Assembly (NCBI RefSeq): GCF_000612545.2 | Contig: NZ_CP097800.1 | Location: 6,106,501 to 6,170,500, forward strand | Origin: Streptomyces sp. PCS3-D2 | Lineage (GTDB): Bacteria > Actinomycetota > Actinomycetes > Streptomycetales > Streptomycetaceae | Length of the DNA: 64,000 bases | Direction: 5' to 3' | Part shown: piece by piece, positions 40,992-49,224 of the stretch | Numbering within the stretch: position 1 is the first letter of the stretch | Layout of the letters: the number at the start of each line of letters is the position of its first letter | Notes under the pieces: generated by a model | Databases searched by the model: none | Seen by the model: the letters and a program-made list of their open reading frames with translations, nothing else | What the model was told of the DNA's origin: nothing | Position numbers and translations under genes: made by a program

Positions 40992-41109
40992 CTTCCATAC
41001 CGCCGGTCGCGCAGTGCGGGGACGGGCACCGCACAGTCACACGCACCGGAGCACCAGCGGTACTTGAGCGCCGCCCCCGTCAGGGGCGCCGCCGGGCAAG
41101 GAGGGCCGC

Positions 41110-42621
41110 ATGACCGTACGGCGAGTAATGGGGATCGAGACGGAGTACGGGATCTCCGTCCCCGGTCACCCGAACGCCAATGCCATGCTCACCTCGTCCC
41201 AGATCGTCAACGCCTACGCGGCGGCGATGCACCGGGCGCGGCGCGCCCGCTGGGACTTCGAGGAGGAGAACCCGCTGCGGGACGCCCGCGGCTTCGACCT
41301 CGCCCGCGAGGCCGCCGACAGCAGCCAGCTGACCGACGAGGACATCGGCCTCGCCAACGTCATCCTGACGAACGGCGCACGTCTCTACGTCGACCACGCG
41401 CACCCCGAGTACAGCTCCCCGGAGATCACCAACCCGCTGGACGCCGTGCTCTGGGACAAGGCCGGCGAGCGGATCATGGCCGAGGCCGCCGTACGGGCCG
41501 CCCAGCTGCCCGGGGCCCAGCCGATCCACCTCTACAAGAACAACACCGACAACAAGGGCGCCTCCTACGGCACGCACGAGAACTACCTGATGAAGCGGGA
41601 GACCCCCTTCTCGGAGATCGTGCGCCACCTGACCCCCTTCTTCGTCTCGCGCCAGGTCGTGACCGGGGCGGGACGCGTGGGCATCGGCCAGGACGGCCGC
41701 GAGCACGGCTTCCAGATCAGCCAGCGTGCGGACTACTTCGAGGTCGAGGTCGGCCTGGAGACCACCCTGAAGCGGCCCATCATCAACACCCGGGACGAGC
41801 CGCACTCCGACGCCGAGAAGTACCGCCGGCTCCACGTGATCATCGGCGACGCGAACCTCTCGGAGATCTCCACCTACCTCAAGCTGGGCACCACGGCGCT
41901 CGTCCTGTCCATGATCGAGGACGGGTTCATCGGCGTCGACCTGGCCGTCGACCAGCCCGTACGCACCCTCCACCACGTCTCCCACGACCCCGGACTGAAG
42001 TACCTGATCACGCTGCGCAGCGGCCGGACACTGACCGCCGTGCAGCTCCAGATGGAGTACTTCGAGCTGGCCAGGAAGTACGTGGACGAGCGTTTCGGCT
42101 CGGACGCGGACGAGCAGACCAAGGATGTCCTCGCCCGCTGGGAGGACGTGCTGGGCCGGCTGGAGAGCGACCCCATGAGCCTGTCGGGGGAGCTGGACTG
42201 GATCGCCAAGCGGGAGATCCTGGAGGGCTACCGGCGCCGGGACGGTCTCGACTGGGACGCGGCGCGGCTGCACCTGGTGGACCTCCAGTACTCGGACGTA
42301 CGGCCCGAGAAGGGCCTCTACAACCGCCTGGTGGCCCGCGGCAAGATGAAGCGGCTGGTGGACGAGTCCGCGGTGGAGCGGGCTCAGAGCAAGCCTCCGG
42401 AGGACACCCGGGCCTACTTCCGCGGCCGCTGCCTGGAGCAGTACGCGGACGACGTGGCCGCGGCCTCGTGGGACTCGGTGATCTTCGATCTCCCGGGCCG
42501 GGACTCGCTCCAGCGGGTCCCGACGCTGGAACCCCTGCGGGGGACCCGCAACCACGTCAAGGAGCTCCTGGACCGCTGCCGCACGGCGGAGGACCTGGTC
42601 CGGGTGCTTTCGGGGCAGTGA
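41110..42621 (+). CDS. dop: Pup deamidase/depupylase Dop
   Basis: 503 residues, the length of Dop and longer than PafA. It is of the glutamine-synthetase-like fold. It begins [13 protein letters not shown] with the catalytic Glu region, then has a Dop-type insertion (about 45-75, containing [20 protein letters not shown]) absent from PafA. The ATP/Mg pocket includes YSSPEI and [18 protein letters not shown]. In actinobacteria with Pup ending in Gln, Dop deamidates it; it also removes Pup from tagged proteins. Here Pup ends in Glu, so depupylation should be its main task. SD AAGGAGGGCCGC precedes ATG 41110. 174 bp separate it from pup. Confidence 0.96.
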
Positions 42622-42733
42622 GCGCGGCTGAAAGGCCGCCGGTCCGGGAATCATGAGGAGAACCGGACGTTGTGAAAGTACGAGGACGAATGCCGGGCCC
42701 TCCCTATAGGGTCCGACATAGGGTCTGATCTTG

Positions 42734-42760
42734 AGAGATCCCGAATCCCGGGGTCTCTCG
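42734..42760 (+). promoter_or_regulatory. Hairpin in the leader of pup
   Basis: 10-bp stem (one G-T) GAGAGATCCC/GGGGTCTCTC with a 7-nt loop, 35 nt before the pup start. Just upstream lie two copies of ATAGGGTC (from about 42711 and 42718) that could be overlapping -10 boxes. Confidence 0.4.
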
Positions 42761-42795
42761 ACATGAGCGTGCGAACCGAGCGGGGTGAGGTAGAC

Positions 42796-43008
42796 ATGGC
42801 GACCAAGGACACCGGCGGCGGACAGCAGAAGGCGACGCGCTCGACCGAGGAGGTCGAGGAGGCCGCGGTCGAGGAATCGACCGACCTCAAGGAGCGCCAG
42901 GAAAAGCTCTCCGACGACGTCGACTCCGTACTTGACGAGATTGACGATGTACTCGAGGAAAACGCGGAGGACTTCGTTCGGAGCTTCGTACAAAAAGGCG
43001 GCGAGTGA
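42796..43008 (+). CDS. pup: Prokaryotic ubiquitin-like protein Pup
   Basis: 70 residues, starting MATKDTGGGQQKATRS and ending EDFVRSFVQKGGE. The unstructured N-terminal part and the helical C-terminal third (VDSVLDEIDDVLEENAEDF) fit Pup, which threads into the ARC coiled coil. The C-terminus is GGE, already Glu, so PafA can link it to target lysines without prior deamidation. The acidic middle (VEEAAVEESTDLKERQ) is slightly shorter than in S. coelicolor as I recall. SD GGGGTGAGG precedes ATG 42796. 37 bp from the next gene, so they are cotranscribed. Confidence 0.97.
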   Translation: MATKDTGGGQQKATRSTEEVEEAAVEESTDLKERQEKLSDDVDSVLDEIDDVLEENAEDFVRSFVQKGGE

Positions 43009-43045
43009 CCTTCGAATCTAAGGTGGGTCCGCCAGTGTGTGCTCC

Positions 43046-43645
43046 ATGCCTCATGGAACGAAGTGGTGTCGTGGCTGCGCCCGCGACCTGCCACTGAGCG
43101 GATTCGCTTCGGATCGGAATCGAAGCGATGGGCTCCAGCCCAGATGTCGTGAATGCGTGGCGGCGTACAGTGCGGAGCACTACAGGCGCCGCCAGGCAGC
43201 CGAGGGTAAATCCGTCAGGGAGCACGTGGAGGTGCCGGCGGGGCACAAGCTGTGCCGACTGTGCGGCGAGATCAAGCCGCACAGCGAATGGCACAAGAAC
43301 GCAAGTGCTTCTGACGGGTTATCCACTCGATGCAAGGCGTGCCGGACCGCCCTGGGGCGGGCGGACCATCTCAAGCGCTCATATGGCATGACCGAGGCCG
43401 ATCGGGACGAGATGGTCGCCGCTCAGGGCGGGCTCTGCTGCATCTGTCTCAAGGCTCCGGCCGTACATGTGGATCATTGCCACAAGACGGGTAGGGTCCG
43501 AGGCGTACTGTGCTTCAACTGCAACACGGCCATCGGCAAGTTGGGTGACGACCCCGACGCAGCCCGTCGGGTCGTCTCATACTTGGAGGGACACGCGTGG
43601 AAGCCAACAATCGTGGCACAGGGCGTCTACCGGCAGCCTTCCTGA
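43046..43645 (+). CDS. Recombination endonuclease VII-like HNH nuclease, TTA codon
   Basis: 199 residues from ATG 43046; GTG 43037 is an alternative. Two zinc-binding CxxC pairs at the start ([14 protein letters not shown], then PRCREC) are repeated as a second copy ([15 protein letters not shown], then RCKAC). The C-terminal endonuclease VII domain has [27 protein letters not shown] (H-N-H metal site with Cys ligands) and AIGKLGDD. Codon use is softer than in neighbours (AAT, AGA, GAT, GGA common) and a TTA leucine codon lies in frame at 43319-43321, which makes translation depend on bldA tRNA in Streptomyces. The last 49 nt overlap the prcB start. A gene of this type lies here in other streptomycetes as I recall. 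Confidence 0.88.
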
Positions 43646-44436
43646 CGCCGGGGTCGTCGTCCTTCATGGACTTCCTGGGCGCGCACTCGCCCGAGATGCT
43701 GCCCGGCAACCGCAAGCTGCCGGAGGGTGTCGTCGAGGCGCCGCACGGGACGACCATCGTGGCCGCCACCTTCCCCGGCGGGGTCGTGCTCGCCGGCGAC
43801 CGGCGGGCGACCATGGGGAACATGATCGCGCAGCGGGACATCGAGAAGGTGTTCCCGGCCGACGAGTACTCCGCTGTCGGCATCGCCGGTACGGCCGGCC
43901 TGGCCGTGGAGATGGTCAAGCTGTTCCAGTTGGAGCTGGAGCACTTCGAGAAGGTGGAGGGGACGACCCTCTCCCTGGAGGGCAAGGCCAACCGGCTCTC
44001 CACCATGATCCGGAGCAACCTCGGCATGGCCATGCAGGGCCTGGCCGTGGTGCCCCTCTTCGCCGGCTACGACGAGGCCAAGGAGAAGGGCCGGATCTTC
44101 TCCTACGACGTCACCGGCGGCCGTTCCGAGGAGCACGGCTACGCGGCGACCGGGTCCGGTTCGATCTTCGCGCGGGGCTCGATGAAGAAGCTCTACCGCC
44201 CTGACCTGACCGAGGAGCAGGCCACCACGCTGGTGGTGCAGGCGCTCTACGACGCCGCCGACGACGACTCGGCGACCGGTGGGCCGGACCTGTACCGCCA
44301 CATCTATCCGATCGTCACCGTCATCACCGACGAGGGCTTCCGCAGGCTGGGCGAGGACGAGTCGCAGGCGCTCGCCCGGTCTGTCACCGATCGTCGCCTG
44401 GAGCAGCCCGACGGCCCGCGCGCCGCCCTGCTCTGA
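43597..44436 (+). CDS. prcB: 20S proteasome beta subunit PrcB
   Basis: 279 residues. GTG 43597 is preceded by TTGGAGGG and lies inside the endonuclease gene. The propeptide of 51 residues ends HG, with autocatalytic cleavage exposing Thr52 ([11 protein letters not shown]), the active-site nucleophile. Conserved [33 protein letters not shown] and [13 protein letters not shown] are those of actinobacterial beta subunits. Seven-membered beta rings pair with PrcA rings as a 20S core that degrades pupylated proteins. The stop at 44436 is 43 bp from prcA. Confidence 0.97.
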
Positions 44437-44479
44437 CCGCCCGTCACCTCGTCGCCCAGAAGAAAGGGACGGAAAGCCG

Positions 44480-45244
44480 GTGTCGACTCCGTTCTATGTG
44501 TCACCCCAGCAGGCCATGGCCGACCGGGCGGAATACGCCCGGAAGGGCATCGCCCGCGGTCGCAGCCTTGTCGTGCTGCAGTACGCCGACGGCATCGTGT
44601 TCGTCGGCGAGAACCCGTCCCGTGCGCTGCACAAGTTCAGCGAGATCTACGACCGGATCGGTTTCGCGGCCGCCGGCAAGTACAACGAGTACGAGAACCT
44701 GCGGATCGGCGGTGTGCGCTACGCGGATCTGCGCGGATACACCTACGACCGTGACGACGTGACGGCCCGTGGGCTGGCCAACGTGTACGCGCAGACCCTC
44801 GGCACGATCTTCTCCTCGGCCGGTGAAAAGCCGTACGAGGTGGAGCTGGTGGTGGCCGAGGTCGGTGCGACGGCCGCCGGCGACCAGATCTACCGCCTGC
44901 CGCACGACGGTTCGATCGTGGACGAGCACGGCTCCGTCGCGGTCGGCGGCAACGCCGAGCAGATCAGCACCTACCTCGACCAACGGCACCAGGACGGCAT
45001 GACCCTTTCGGAGGCGCTGAAGCTGGCGGTCGCGGCGCTGTCCAGCCAGGCCAACGGCACCGACAAGGCGATTCCGGCGGAGCGGCTGGAGGTGGCGGTG
45101 CTGGACCGGACCCGGTCCCAGCAGCGCAAGTTCAAGCGGATCCGGGGACGGCAGCTGGCGCGGCTGCTGGAGGCGGACGTGCCGGCGGCCGCGCAGGCGG
45201 ACGCCGTGTCGAACGACGAGGCTCCCGAGGACGACGCGGAGTAG
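44480..45244 (+). CDS. prcA: 20S proteasome alpha subunit PrcA
   Basis: 254 residues from GTG 44480, after GGGACGGAAAG. It begins [20 protein letters not shown], the gate-forming N-terminal tail, followed by [20 protein letters not shown] and a non-catalytic beta-sandwich fold ([22 protein letters not shown]). The C-terminal tail (about 225-254) is acidic and disordered. Alpha rings form the gate that ARC opens. Ends 27 bp before a strong terminator shared with the LacI regulator gene, which converges. Confidence 0.97.
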
Positions 45245-45270
45245 GGAGCCGGGCCAGGATCCGGGTACGC

Positions 45271-45307
45271 GGCCCCGGTTGCCCCCCGCTGGGGGGTGGC
45301 CGGGGCT
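45271..45307. terminator. Bidirectional terminator after prcA
   Basis: Outer 7-bp stem GCCCCGG/CCGGGGC enclosing a CCCCCC/GGGGGG inner stem between convergent genes. Confidence 0.7.
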
Positions 45308-45325
45308 TCGGCGTGTCCGGCCGGT

Positions 45326-46324
45326 TCAGGGGGTGGGTGCCGGTCCCGTGGAGTCACGGACGACGAGGGTGACGGGGATGTCGGGGGCGGTCCAGCGATC
45401 GCCGTCGAGGACGGCGAGGAGTGCGGTCATGCCCTGCTCGCCGACTTGTTCGGCGGGCAGGTGGACCGTGGTGAGTTCGGGTTCGACGGCGGTGGCGAGG
45501 GCGAGGTCGTCGAAGCCGGTGACGGAGAGGTCCCCGGGGACGCTCAGGCCGAGGCGGCGGGCGGCCTTGCAGGCGCCGGCGGCGAGGATGTCGTCGTCGC
45601 AGACGACGGCCGTGGGGCGTCCCTCGGGGGCCGCCAGGGCGGCTTCCATGGCCGTACGGGCGCCGTCGGCGGTGAGGGGGGACCGTACGGTGCGCAGCTC
45701 GGTCCCGGGGCCCAGGAGGGCGCTGAGGGCTTCGGCGCGGGTGTCGAAGGTCCAGGAGCCGACGGCGGAGGCGAGGTGCAGGAAGCGCCGGTGGCCGAGG
45801 GCGAGGAGGTGCTCGGTGACCTGGCGCATGCCGTCGGCCATGGCGAGGTTGACGTGGGCGGCGGCGCCGCCGGCACGGGGGTCGCTGTCGAGCATGACGA
45901 GGGGGAGGGCGTCGCCGCCGATGGCCTGGAGCGCGTGGGCGGCCATGGACGAGGCGATGACTCCGTCGAGGGCGGCGCGGGCGGAGGCGAAGGGGTCCCG
46001 GGCGGGGCCGGTGCCGTCGGGGGACGGGTAGAGGACCACGCCGAAGCCGTGTTCGGCGGCCACACGGGCGGCACCGGTGTAGACGCGGGCGAAGAACTCG
46101 TTGGTGAGGGCCGGGACGACGAGGAGGGCGGTGCGGGTGGAGCCGAGGCGCAGGTTGCGGGCGGCGAGATTGGGGCGGTAGCCGAGCCGGGTGGCGGTCT
46201 CCCGGACGAGGGCGGCGGTGCGCTCGGAGACGCGGCCGGGCCACTTGTCGCCCAGGACGAGGGAGACGGTGGCCTGGGAGACCCCGGCGGCGGTGGCCAC
46301 GTCCCGGCTGGTGGGTCTCGTCAC
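45326..46324 (-). CDS. LacI-family transcriptional regulator
   Basis: 332 residues from GTG 46324, with AGGAG 6 nt before it. N-terminal HTH RDVATAAGVSQATVSLVLGD, hinge RPNLAARNLRLG with the usual Leu, then a periplasmic-binding-protein-like sensor domain (VLYPSPDGTG, VTGFDDLALATAV). Ligand unknown; such regulators sense sugars or nucleosides. It is divergent from the MFS gene, with 135 bp between starts and a 7-bp inverted repeat (46398-46424) in that gap. The pair sits between prcA and pafA. Confidence 0.9.
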   Translation of the reverse strand: MTRPTSRDVATAAGVSQATVSLVLGDKWPGRVSERTAALVRETATRLGYRPNLAARNLRLGSTRTALLVVPALTNEFFARVYTGAARVAAEHGFGVVLYPSPDGTGPARDPFASARAALDGVIASSMAAHALQAIGGDALPLVMLDSDPRAGGAAAHVNLAMADGMRQVTEHLLALGHRRFLHLASAVGSWTFDTRAEALSALLGPGTELRTVRSPLTADGARTAMEAALAAPEGRPTAVVCDDDILAAGACKAARRLGLSVPGDLSVTGFDDLALATAVEPELTTVHLPAEQVGEQGMTALLAVLDGDRWTAPDIPVTLVVRDSTGPAPTP

Positions 46325-47862: not shown

Positions 47863-49224
47863 ATGGACCGCCGCATTTTCGGGCTGGAGAACGAGTACGG
47901 CGTCACGTGCACGTTCAGGGGACAGCGCCGACTGTCTCCTGACGAAGTGGCGCGCTACCTCTTCCGCCGTGTCGTGTCATGGGGCCGCAGCAGCAATGTC
48001 TTCCTGCGGAACGGCGCCCGCCTGTACCTCGACGTGGGTTCGCATCCGGAATATGCAACTCCCGAATGTGACAACGTGACCGAGCTGGTCACGCACGACA
48101 AAGCAGGCGAGCGCATTCTCGAAGGACTGCTCGTCGACGCCGAGCGCCGCCTGCACGAGGAGGGAATCGCGGGCGACGTCTATCTCTTCAAGAACAACAC
48201 CGACTCGGCGGGCAACTCGTACGGCTGCCACGAGAACTACCTGGTGGCCCGGCACGGGGAATTCTCCCGCCTGGCGGACATTCTCATTCCGTTCCTCGTC
48301 ACCCGGCAGCTGATCTGCGGGGCCGGCAAGGTGCTGCAGACCCCTCGGGGCGCGGTCTACTGCGTGAGCCAGCGGGCTGAGCACATCTGGGAGGGCGTCA
48401 GCTCCGCGACGACGCGTTCGCGGCCGATCATCAACACCCGCGACGAGCCGCACGCGGACGCGGAGCGCTACCGCCGTCTGCACGTGATCGTGGGCGACTC
48501 GAACATGTCCGAGACGACCATGCTGCTGAAGGTCGGGGCGACCGACCTGGTGCTGCGCATGATCGAGGCGGGCACGGTGATGCGGGACCTGACCCTGGAG
48601 AATCCGATCCGGGCGATCCGCGAGGTCAGCCACGACATCACGGGCCAGCGCAAGGTGCGGCTGGCCAGCGGCCGGGAGGCCTCCGCGCTGGAGATCCAGC
48701 GGGAGTACTACGACAAGGCCGTGGACTTCGCCGAGCGCCGGGGCATCCGCACCGGTGTGGTGGACCAGGTGCTGGAGCTGTGGGGCCGCACGCTGGACGC
48801 GATCGAGGCGGAGGACCTGGACCGGATCGGCACCGAGATCGACTGGGTCATGAAGTACCAGCTCATCGAGCGGTACCGGGAGAAGCACAACATGACCATG
48901 TCGAATCCGCGGGTGGCTCAGATAGACCTCGCCTACCACGACATCCACCGCCGGCGCGGGCTGTACTACCTGCTGGAGCGCAAGGGGCAGGCGGCGCGGA
49001 TCTGCAACGACCTCAAGATCTTCGAGGGCAAGTCGGTGCCTCCGCAGACGACCAGGGCCCGGCTGCGCGGCGACTTCATTCGCCGGGCGCAGGAGCAGCG
49101 GCGGGACTTCACGGTCGACTGGGTGCACCTGAAGCTCAATGACCAGGCGCAGCGGACGGTGCTGTGCAAAGACCCGTTCCGGTCCGTCGACGACCGCGTG
49201 GAGAAGTTGATCGCCGGCATGTAG
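47863..49224 (+). CDS. pafA: Pup-protein ligase PafA
   Basis: 453 residues. It begins [13 protein letters not shown] with the catalytic Glu and ATP-binding region of the glutamine-synthetase/gamma-glutamyl-cysteine ligase-like fold, without the insertion that marks Dop. Other family blocks: [57 protein letters not shown] and [13 protein letters not shown]. It forms an isopeptide bond between the gamma-carboxyl of the Pup C-terminal Glu and target lysines, using ATP. Followed by a 14-bp hairpin. Confidence 0.97.

Follow-up and report, generated by a model that had tools for sequence, protein, structure and literature searches.

The Pup-proteasome locus and the nuclease gene within it

The window, by which we mean the whole stretch of 64,000 nucleotides analysed here from contig NZ_CP097800.1 of Streptomyces sp. 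PCS3-D2, contains a Pup-proteasome locus in which mpa, dop and pup lie before a nuclease gene, and prcB, prcA, an MFS gene, two FKBP genes and two WYL genes (assigned by Pfam) lie on its other side. The features on which the analysis turns are the following.

41110..42621, + strand: dop (Pup_ligase family; PF03136, 644.7 bits), the upstream gene used as divergence yardstick
42796..43008, + strand: pup (PF05639, 98.4 bits)
43037..43645, + strand: Endonuclease VII-type HNH nuclease gene, 202 aa, GTG start at 43037 (ATG at 43046 possible); PF02945, 88.6 bits; PHROG endonuclease VII, 146.3 bits; PDB matches to Hpy99I and T4 endonuclease VII
43061..43195, + strand: first CxxC...CxxC module, residues 9-53, from the alignment; the most divergent part between close relatives in the allele comparison
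43247..43351, + strand: second CxxC...CxxC module, residues 71-105, from the alignment; together with the HNH part it matches Hpy99I
43319..43321, + strand: TTA leucine codon 95, in 6 of 62 intact homologues including the window's
43430..43537, + strand: HNH/zinc site, residues 132-167 (C134, C137, D146, H147, C159, C162, N163), from Pfam and the alignment
43470..43497, + strand: promoter-like element TGGATC (43470-43475)-N16-TAGGGT (43492-43497), inside the HNH codons
43585..43590, + strand: GGAGGG, Shine-Dalgarno-like site of prcB in nuclease codons 183-185, read from the sequence
43597..43645, + strand: overlap of the nuclease 3' end with the prcB 5' end, 49 nt, frames differing, in 70/70 loci
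43597..44436, + strand: prcB, GTG start at 43597 (PF00227, 142.5 bits)
44480..45244, + strand: prcA (PF00227, 63.1 bits)

An earlier, sequence-only reading of this DNA had placed an Endonuclease VII-like gene with an in-frame TTA codon between pup and prcB, and on these points it was borne out: the gene is intact, the PF02945 (Endonuclease_7) score of 88.6 bits passes the curated cut-off of 23.6 bits, the TTA at 43319-43321 is codon 95, and the nuclease stop (43643-43645) lies beyond the prcB GTG at 43597, which gives the 49-nt overlap. It was equally right about the softer codon use of the gene (GC3 of 0.74, with 0.81 in pup and 0.91-0.96 in mpa, dop, prcB, prcA and the pafA-like ORF); about the two CxxC modules and the HNH site, recovered by alignment with the cysteines, D146, H147 and N163 invariant or nearly so and with more Cys pairs around the HNH site; about the proximity of pafB/pafC, two WYL genes at about 50.8-52.9 kb of which the second holds a PafC domain; and in remarking that this is an odd place for a nuclease. 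The gene is the sole PF02945 match in the genome at E 0.001 or better. Farther along, a 453-aa ORF at 47863-49224 is pafA-like in appearance, and an MFS transporter domain (about 46.4-47.7 kb) lies between prcA and this ORF.

The overlap is fixed and the TTA codon is not

Searching close relatives with the window protein as seed turned up 69 loci in Streptomyces, Kitasatospora and Embleya, which together with the window's own copy (L001) make 70; setting aside eight truncated or frameshifted copies (L058, L062, L064, L065, L067-L070) leaves 62 intact homologues, a set that leans towards the window's kin because the window protein seeded the search. A pup match lies upstream of the nuclease and a prcB match downstream in 70/70 loci. 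The sequence-only reading had named the conservation of two features, the overlap and the TTA codon, among the checks on its proposal that bldA-dependent translation of the nuclease might influence prcB. The overlap held without exception: in all 70 loci, the window's included, the nuclease stop falls exactly 48 nt past the first prcB base, and a fixed overlap of 49 nt is more than chance would give.

The TTA codon did not hold. Six of the 62 intact homologues carry it (L001, L009, L015, L021, L025 and L041), four of them at codon 95, and its presence implies at least 5 changes on the prcB tree; one further TTA in L042, upstream of the aligned stretch, is left out of this count. Absence from close relatives, which the earlier reading had named, along with unaffected PrcB levels, as evidence against itself, was largely found, since the codon is missing from L002-L008 (75-88% protein identity) and reappears in L009 (74%). 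In those 62 strains the stretches covering dop, prcB and prcA contain no TTA. The conservation among orthologues that would be expected of a bldA-dependent developmental gene is lacking at 6/62, and bldA coupling was rejected on this ground. A review notes that TTA codons were often unconserved even in genes that were themselves conserved (PMC4255298).

A promoter-like element inside the HNH codons

The HrdB-type promoter consensus has TTGACN at -35 and TANNNT at -10. A hexamer of the latter form, TAGGGT, ends 99 nt upstream of the prcB start in the window, and TANNNT is present in all 62 intact nuclease genes as well as in 30/30 sampled Streptomyces loci without a good nuclease match. The fuller pattern T[GTC]GATC-N16-TANNNT is found in nearly all copies of Streptomyces and kin, the -35 side at 16-nt spacing reading TGGATC, TTGATC or TCGATC (TGGACC once), and the wider pattern is matched exactly once in the window genome. 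The -35 half is a poor fit to TTGACN, and a generic sigma-70 scan called no promoter at the element.

Codons 152-154 read GGT-AGG-GTC in 42 of the 62 genes, GGT-AAG-GTC in 16, GGT-AGT-GTC in two, and GGT-AGG-GTT and GGT-ATG-GTC in one each, so that the T, A and T of TANNNT (GG-TANNNT-C or -T) are invariant while residue 153 is R, K, S or M. Synonymous variation is low throughout codons 144-160, and fourfold-site entropy, which is 1.1-1.9 bits over codons 19-107, drops to 0-0.28 over codons 151-157. It is also zero at 5/7 scored sites within the prcB overlap, and codon 185, within the Shine-Dalgarno-like site of prcB, is GGA in 60/62 intact homologues; codons 117 and 119 are likewise low (0.70 and 0.81), which a promoter does not explain. 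The protein sequence does not force the hexamer, because the protein motif was found in 25 of 33 copies from other families and none of those 25 makes TANNNT. With TANNNT kept in 62/62 intact genes and in 30/30 sampled loci that gave no good match, prcBA is probably transcribed from a start of its own, predicted from this element. An RNA family was rejected as an explanation, nothing reaching the Rfam gathering thresholds between 41000 and 46000.

Streptomyces loci without a good nuclease match

Thirty genomes (loci L071-L100) were sampled, comprising 26 of the 66 without a PF02945 match, six of which had been picked for their absence from the list of matching genomes, and four with weak matches (G009, G029, G133 and G178). 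prcB was found in all 30. In each of these loci GGTANNNT, followed by CC, lies 44-111 nt upstream of prcB, and the block before it reads T[GT]GATCA-N12-GGGTA in 14 loci, GGATGAC-N12-GGGTA in 12, the latter with N13 in one and neither in three. Damaged nuclease sequence reaching back to residue 157 or earlier was recovered by tblastn in 15/30. The tblastn 'remnants' of several others (e.g. L077, L081, L089, L095 and L096) cover just the prcB overlap and the ribosome site and are no evidence of a former gene; L086 gave no remnant match and L098 no pup. Across the 100 loci of the prcB tree, the state switches between intact and decayed at least 17 times, and starred branches force 11 of these switches. 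As far as sequences can establish it, the nuclease gene decays often, and the element outlives the nuclease reading frame in Streptomyces and kin.

A strong hairpin (z below -2, from mononucleotide shuffles) lies directly 3' of pup in 20/29 of these loci versus 8/62 intact loci, as expected if prcBA started on its own. The hairpins after pup in L071-L100 are very stable, GC-rich and terminator- or attenuator-like. Two published reports are consistent with a separate prcBA start, though indirectly: in one, insertions in pup, dop and arc of S. coelicolor raised actinorhodin and no proteasome mutants were found (PMC6585502), and the other, on an osdR mutant, names the pair prcA-prcB in its list of genes related to stress (PMC5069765).

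Two further observations concern these regions. In family f3, 8/11 fetched loci (L146, L147, L149-L151 and L154-L156) are without the nuclease and carry CTAGGGTCGC, a TANNNT element, in the pup-prcB gap, and in L148, also from f3, a remnant of the nuclease survives with GGGTAAGGTACG. Some Streptomyces also possess a second prcB-like gene with 43-68% identity to the window's PrcB (L157-L159, from G426, G418 and G292; also G009, G050, G120, G121, G124, G133, G222, G336, G376 and G419), with no pup near it in the three stretches fetched (L157-L159).

Apparent exchange of nuclease parts between species

Alleles were compared with one genome per species. Among the 1891 pairs of intact loci, 46 have dop at most 6% different; in these prcB differs by up to 10.7% and prcA by up to 12.6%, and nuclease codons 8-66 differ by at least 20% in 42, some part of the nuclease doing so in 43. 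For 20 sister pairs of the dop tree, more than three times the dop distance was found in the 5' part of the nuclease for 18, in its 3' part for nine and in prcB for none. Across ten pairs in 100-nt bins, the lowest nuclease bin has 42-65% identity in nine and 78% in L001-L002, with flanks mostly at 85-100%; low bins occur outside the nuclease too, in prcA of L018-L055 (26% and 51%) and near the dop end of L006-L035 (59%).

Tree comparisons agree with this picture. With branch supports from quick trees, dop and nuclease share 4 supported splits of 40 and 32, dop and prcB 16 of 40 and 33, and the conflicting split pairs amount to 21% for dop-nuclease versus 4% in the dop-prcB control; conflict between the gene tree and the flanking genes, as would be expected of a homing endonuclease, is thus present. 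The prcB tree unites L001-L015, L018-L055 and L010-L044-L050 (support 93, 92 and 75), and for the nuclease tree AU tests reject the pairs L001-L015 (p 1e-59), L018-L055 (p 9e-6) and L010-L044 (p 3e-5). Breakpoints fall within the nuclease gene: the HNH end, but not the front, is common to the window and S. yangpuensis (L015), which differ by 51% in codons 8-66, 4.8% in the 3' part and 2.8% in dop, and S. virginiae (L002) and S. avidinii (L009) have the front in common and differ in the HNH end. A 4-residue N-terminal insert changes state at least 14 times along the dop tree (shuffled mean 17.6), and starred branches force 10 of these changes. The L001-L015 pattern, the changes of this insert and the AU rejection of three sister pairs led us to reject plain fast evolution, and together the comparisons point to exchange of nuclease parts, above all the N-terminal zinc modules, between species.

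Distribution across genus, class and phylum

A PF02945 match lies somewhere in the genome in 327/393 genomes of the genus, with its place partly checked. When 394 genomes of the class were searched with a profile, 70 gave a match, 39 of them outside the genus, of which five (G535, G580, G589, G592 and G737) were left unfetched. In other families 32/33 fetched copies adjoin pup and/or prcB and 28 adjoin both, L232 being the exception; in G444 the match overlaps prcB by coordinates. Copies adjoining pup or prcB were found in eleven other families (f11, f13, f16, f18, f19, f20, f23, f39, f40, f42 and f50), and a search of 296 genomes of the phylum matched 20, with 13 outside the class and 11/13 of these adjoining pup and/or prcB. 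On these counts the pup-EndoVII-prcB arrangement is widespread but patchy across the phylum, and the sequence-only suggestion that the gene was captured proved too simple, since the gene recurs at the same site throughout it. One class-level set of 20 loci has a pup-prcB gap of 30 nt or less in 12, and such close junctions could be empty or ancestral sites. Tandem pairs of Endonuclease VII domains are also seen between pup and prcB (L220, L221, L223, L224, L226, L228 and L229 in f20; L237 and L241-L244 in f51; L245 in f59; L246 in f83).

In a tree of 100 nuclease domains (132 columns, LG+G4 without mixture, 22 loci dropped by a motif filter, 36/93 inner branches open), holding 65 locus rows together was not rejected (p-AU 0.84), which is no demonstration of a clade. 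The free tree does not keep the locus rows together: locus copy L247 stands beside a phage copy (starred), and the long viral rows L118, L123 and L141 fall among locus copies, but most locus copies stand apart from the viral ones in this poorly resolved tree. Long residence of the nuclease at the locus is likely but not proven, repeated arrival at one site being the alternative.

Protein family and selection

T4 endonuclease VII, whose catalytic D-H and N and zinc cysteines serve here as reference residues, cuts branched DNA as a dimer. The corresponding D146, H147, N163, C134, C137, C159 and C162 are constant in 62/62 intact homologues. The best PDB match is the restriction endonuclease Hpy99I (3fc3; E 9.5e-13 over zinc module and HNH, profile positions 63-177), followed by T4 endonuclease VII (1e7d; E 7e-9, profile positions 113-167). 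With the promoter block and the overlap set aside, median dN/dS is 0.37 in codons 8-66, 0.22 in codons 67-110 and 0.24 in codons 111-143, taken over pairs with a synonymous difference of 0.1-0.6 (547, 396 and 1216 of 1891, respectively) and with synonymous sites of the front part near saturation. Purifying selection and constant catalytic residues argue for a working protein; diversifying selection is read from exchange and not from rates, because dN/dS lies below 1.

NCBIfam gave no match for the nuclease. A named defence family was rejected, the sole PADLOC match being REase_II (E 8.2e-10), and a classic restriction enzyme is unlikely because none of the 14 frames scanned with Pfam between 39.0 and 53.0 kb is a methyltransferase. 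The nuclease copies mostly keep to one site, unlike usual defence genes. The best profile match overall is the PHROG endonuclease VII family of phages (146.3 bits), so that an ancient viral origin is possible; recent phage capture was rejected, given that the matches in 1670 phage records all stay below 60% identity (at most 35.7% among the 30 matches listed) and that most locus copies group apart. Swapped front modules combined with a kept catalytic core suggest changing DNA targets, and a polymorphic DNA-recognising nuclease is the function that we favour, a weighting that is a matter of judgement and to which we attach a little less than even confidence.

Discussion

Our overall explanation, which we hold to be somewhat better than evenly supported, is that of a resident HNH nuclease with a nested prcBA promoter and exchanged modules. 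The zinc-bound, Endonuclease VII/Hpy99I-like gene would belong to the Pup-proteasome locus, sitting between pup and prcB by long residence rather than repeated arrival, with copies of the group that, to judge from their sequences, reach beyond the class within the phylum. The element would act as the prcBA promoter, with a start about 90 nt upstream of prcB, which would make prcBA independent of translation of the TTA codon; with both promoter and ribosome site inside the gene, loss could take only the front part. The nuclease itself may recognise particular DNA, whether foreign DNA or some structure in DNA, and the zinc modules may be kept swapping by selection for diverse recognition. A bolder version, tentative and rather doubtful as a whole, would see in it an unrecognised nuclease of the phylum's Pup-proteasome locus whose alleles are swapped under frequency-dependent selection, as in defence against foreign DNA, and whose catalytic-site codons have, in Streptomyces and kin, become the promoter of the proteasome genes, so that expression of the proteasome is bound to the nuclease gene.

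Three other accounts bear on how prcB comes to be expressed. That the TTA codon times translation of the nuclease and, via the overlap, of prcB, as the sequence-only reading proposed, draws on two features that are both real; it found no support, the codon occurring in 6/62 intact homologues with at least five changes on the prcB tree, the promoter-like element and the Shine-Dalgarno-like site lying downstream of it, and prcB being present in 30/30 sampled genomes without a good nuclease match, and we regard it as extremely unlikely. The conserved block in the HNH codons might instead be a regulator site or an RNA element, which would suit its non-canonical -35 half and the negative sigma-70 scan; the constancy of TANNNT in all 62 intact genes and all 30 loci without a good match, the constant distance that separates it from a second block in 26 of the latter, and the lack of an Rfam family in 41000-46000 make this quite unlikely. 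A reading frame that survives as a relic, solely for the prcBA promoter and ribosome site, would account for remnants that retain just those parts, but codons 8-143 hold their cysteines amid synonymous change (median dN/dS 0.22-0.37) and the gene persists in families whose copies are without the element, which renders such a relic very unlikely.

As to what the protein does, a homing-type selfish nuclease, one that cuts gene-less or different pup-prcB alleles, is copied in, decays and returns, would agree with the single site throughout the phylum, with the interleaving of intact and decayed loci (17 switches on the prcB tree, of which starred branches force at least 11) and with the conflict between nuclease tree and dop. 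The 30 sampled Streptomyces loci are nevertheless not clean empty sites, because they keep the element and 15 also keep damaged gene sequence; moreover, in the pairs inspected exchange can cover the N-terminal part alone (L001-L015) or the HNH part alone (L002-L009), and of the 1891 pairs none with dop at least 10% apart has a 5' part that differs by 8% or less or a 3' part that differs by 6% or less, although the 3' part is closer than dop in some less distant pairs (L027-L033, 4.2% vs 7.1%). We rate homing as rather unlikely. Similarity to T4 endonuclease VII, linkage to pup and prcB across the phylum and the WYL/PafC genes within the window would suit a housekeeping nuclease for branched DNA that serves a DNA-damage programme and is linked with Pup and the proteasome, PafBC being nearby; such a role is unlikely in our estimation, as frequent loss and module exchange ill suit a conserved repair step. 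A resident, polymorphic DNA-recognising nuclease with a nested promoter is still the account that we prefer.

These results bear on a well-studied locus in which a recurrent nuclease is absent from the open-licence literature that we found, and they offer a testable link between bacterial proteasomes and DNA cleavage, whether in defence, repair or homing. They also provide a compact case in which a promoter-like element lies nested in catalytic-site codons and persists after the gene is lost, as well as one of apparent allele exchange within an otherwise conserved operon.

Comparison with known systems

The window resembles the reviewed Pup-proteasome locus in its mpa, dop, pup, prcB, prcA, FKBP and WYL genes. 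The open-licence literature searched yielded no description of an Endonuclease VII/HNH nuclease within that locus, neither generally nor for endonuclease VII together with pupylation (to 2016), and no paper on SCO1645, which we take to be the S. coelicolor gene at the nuclease position; neighbouring SCO numbers likewise led to no nuclease description. The words nuclease, endonuclease and HNH are absent from the main text of PMC2588565, the accessible part of PMC8223512 does not mention a nuclease, and PMC12451607, matched by endonuclease VII, proteasome and actinobacteria, concerns phage genes in its accessible part. With the TTA/bldA-controlled genes of Streptomyces the nuclease gene has in common its one TTA codon, but that codon is not conserved, occurring in 6/62 intact homologues. 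Gene 257 of Streptomyces phage Starbow shares 35.1% identity over 87% of the nuclease protein, whereas most locus copies group apart from phage endonuclease VII genes in the poorly resolved tree. T4 recombination endonuclease VII shares the HNH core and PF02945, the match being to that core only and leaving the two N-terminal zinc modules of the nuclease unmatched. From Hpy99I the window nuclease differs in having no methyltransferase among the 14 frames scanned, in its seat at a proteasome locus and in its extra N-terminal zinc module, while both proteins are built of a zinc module followed by an HNH module.
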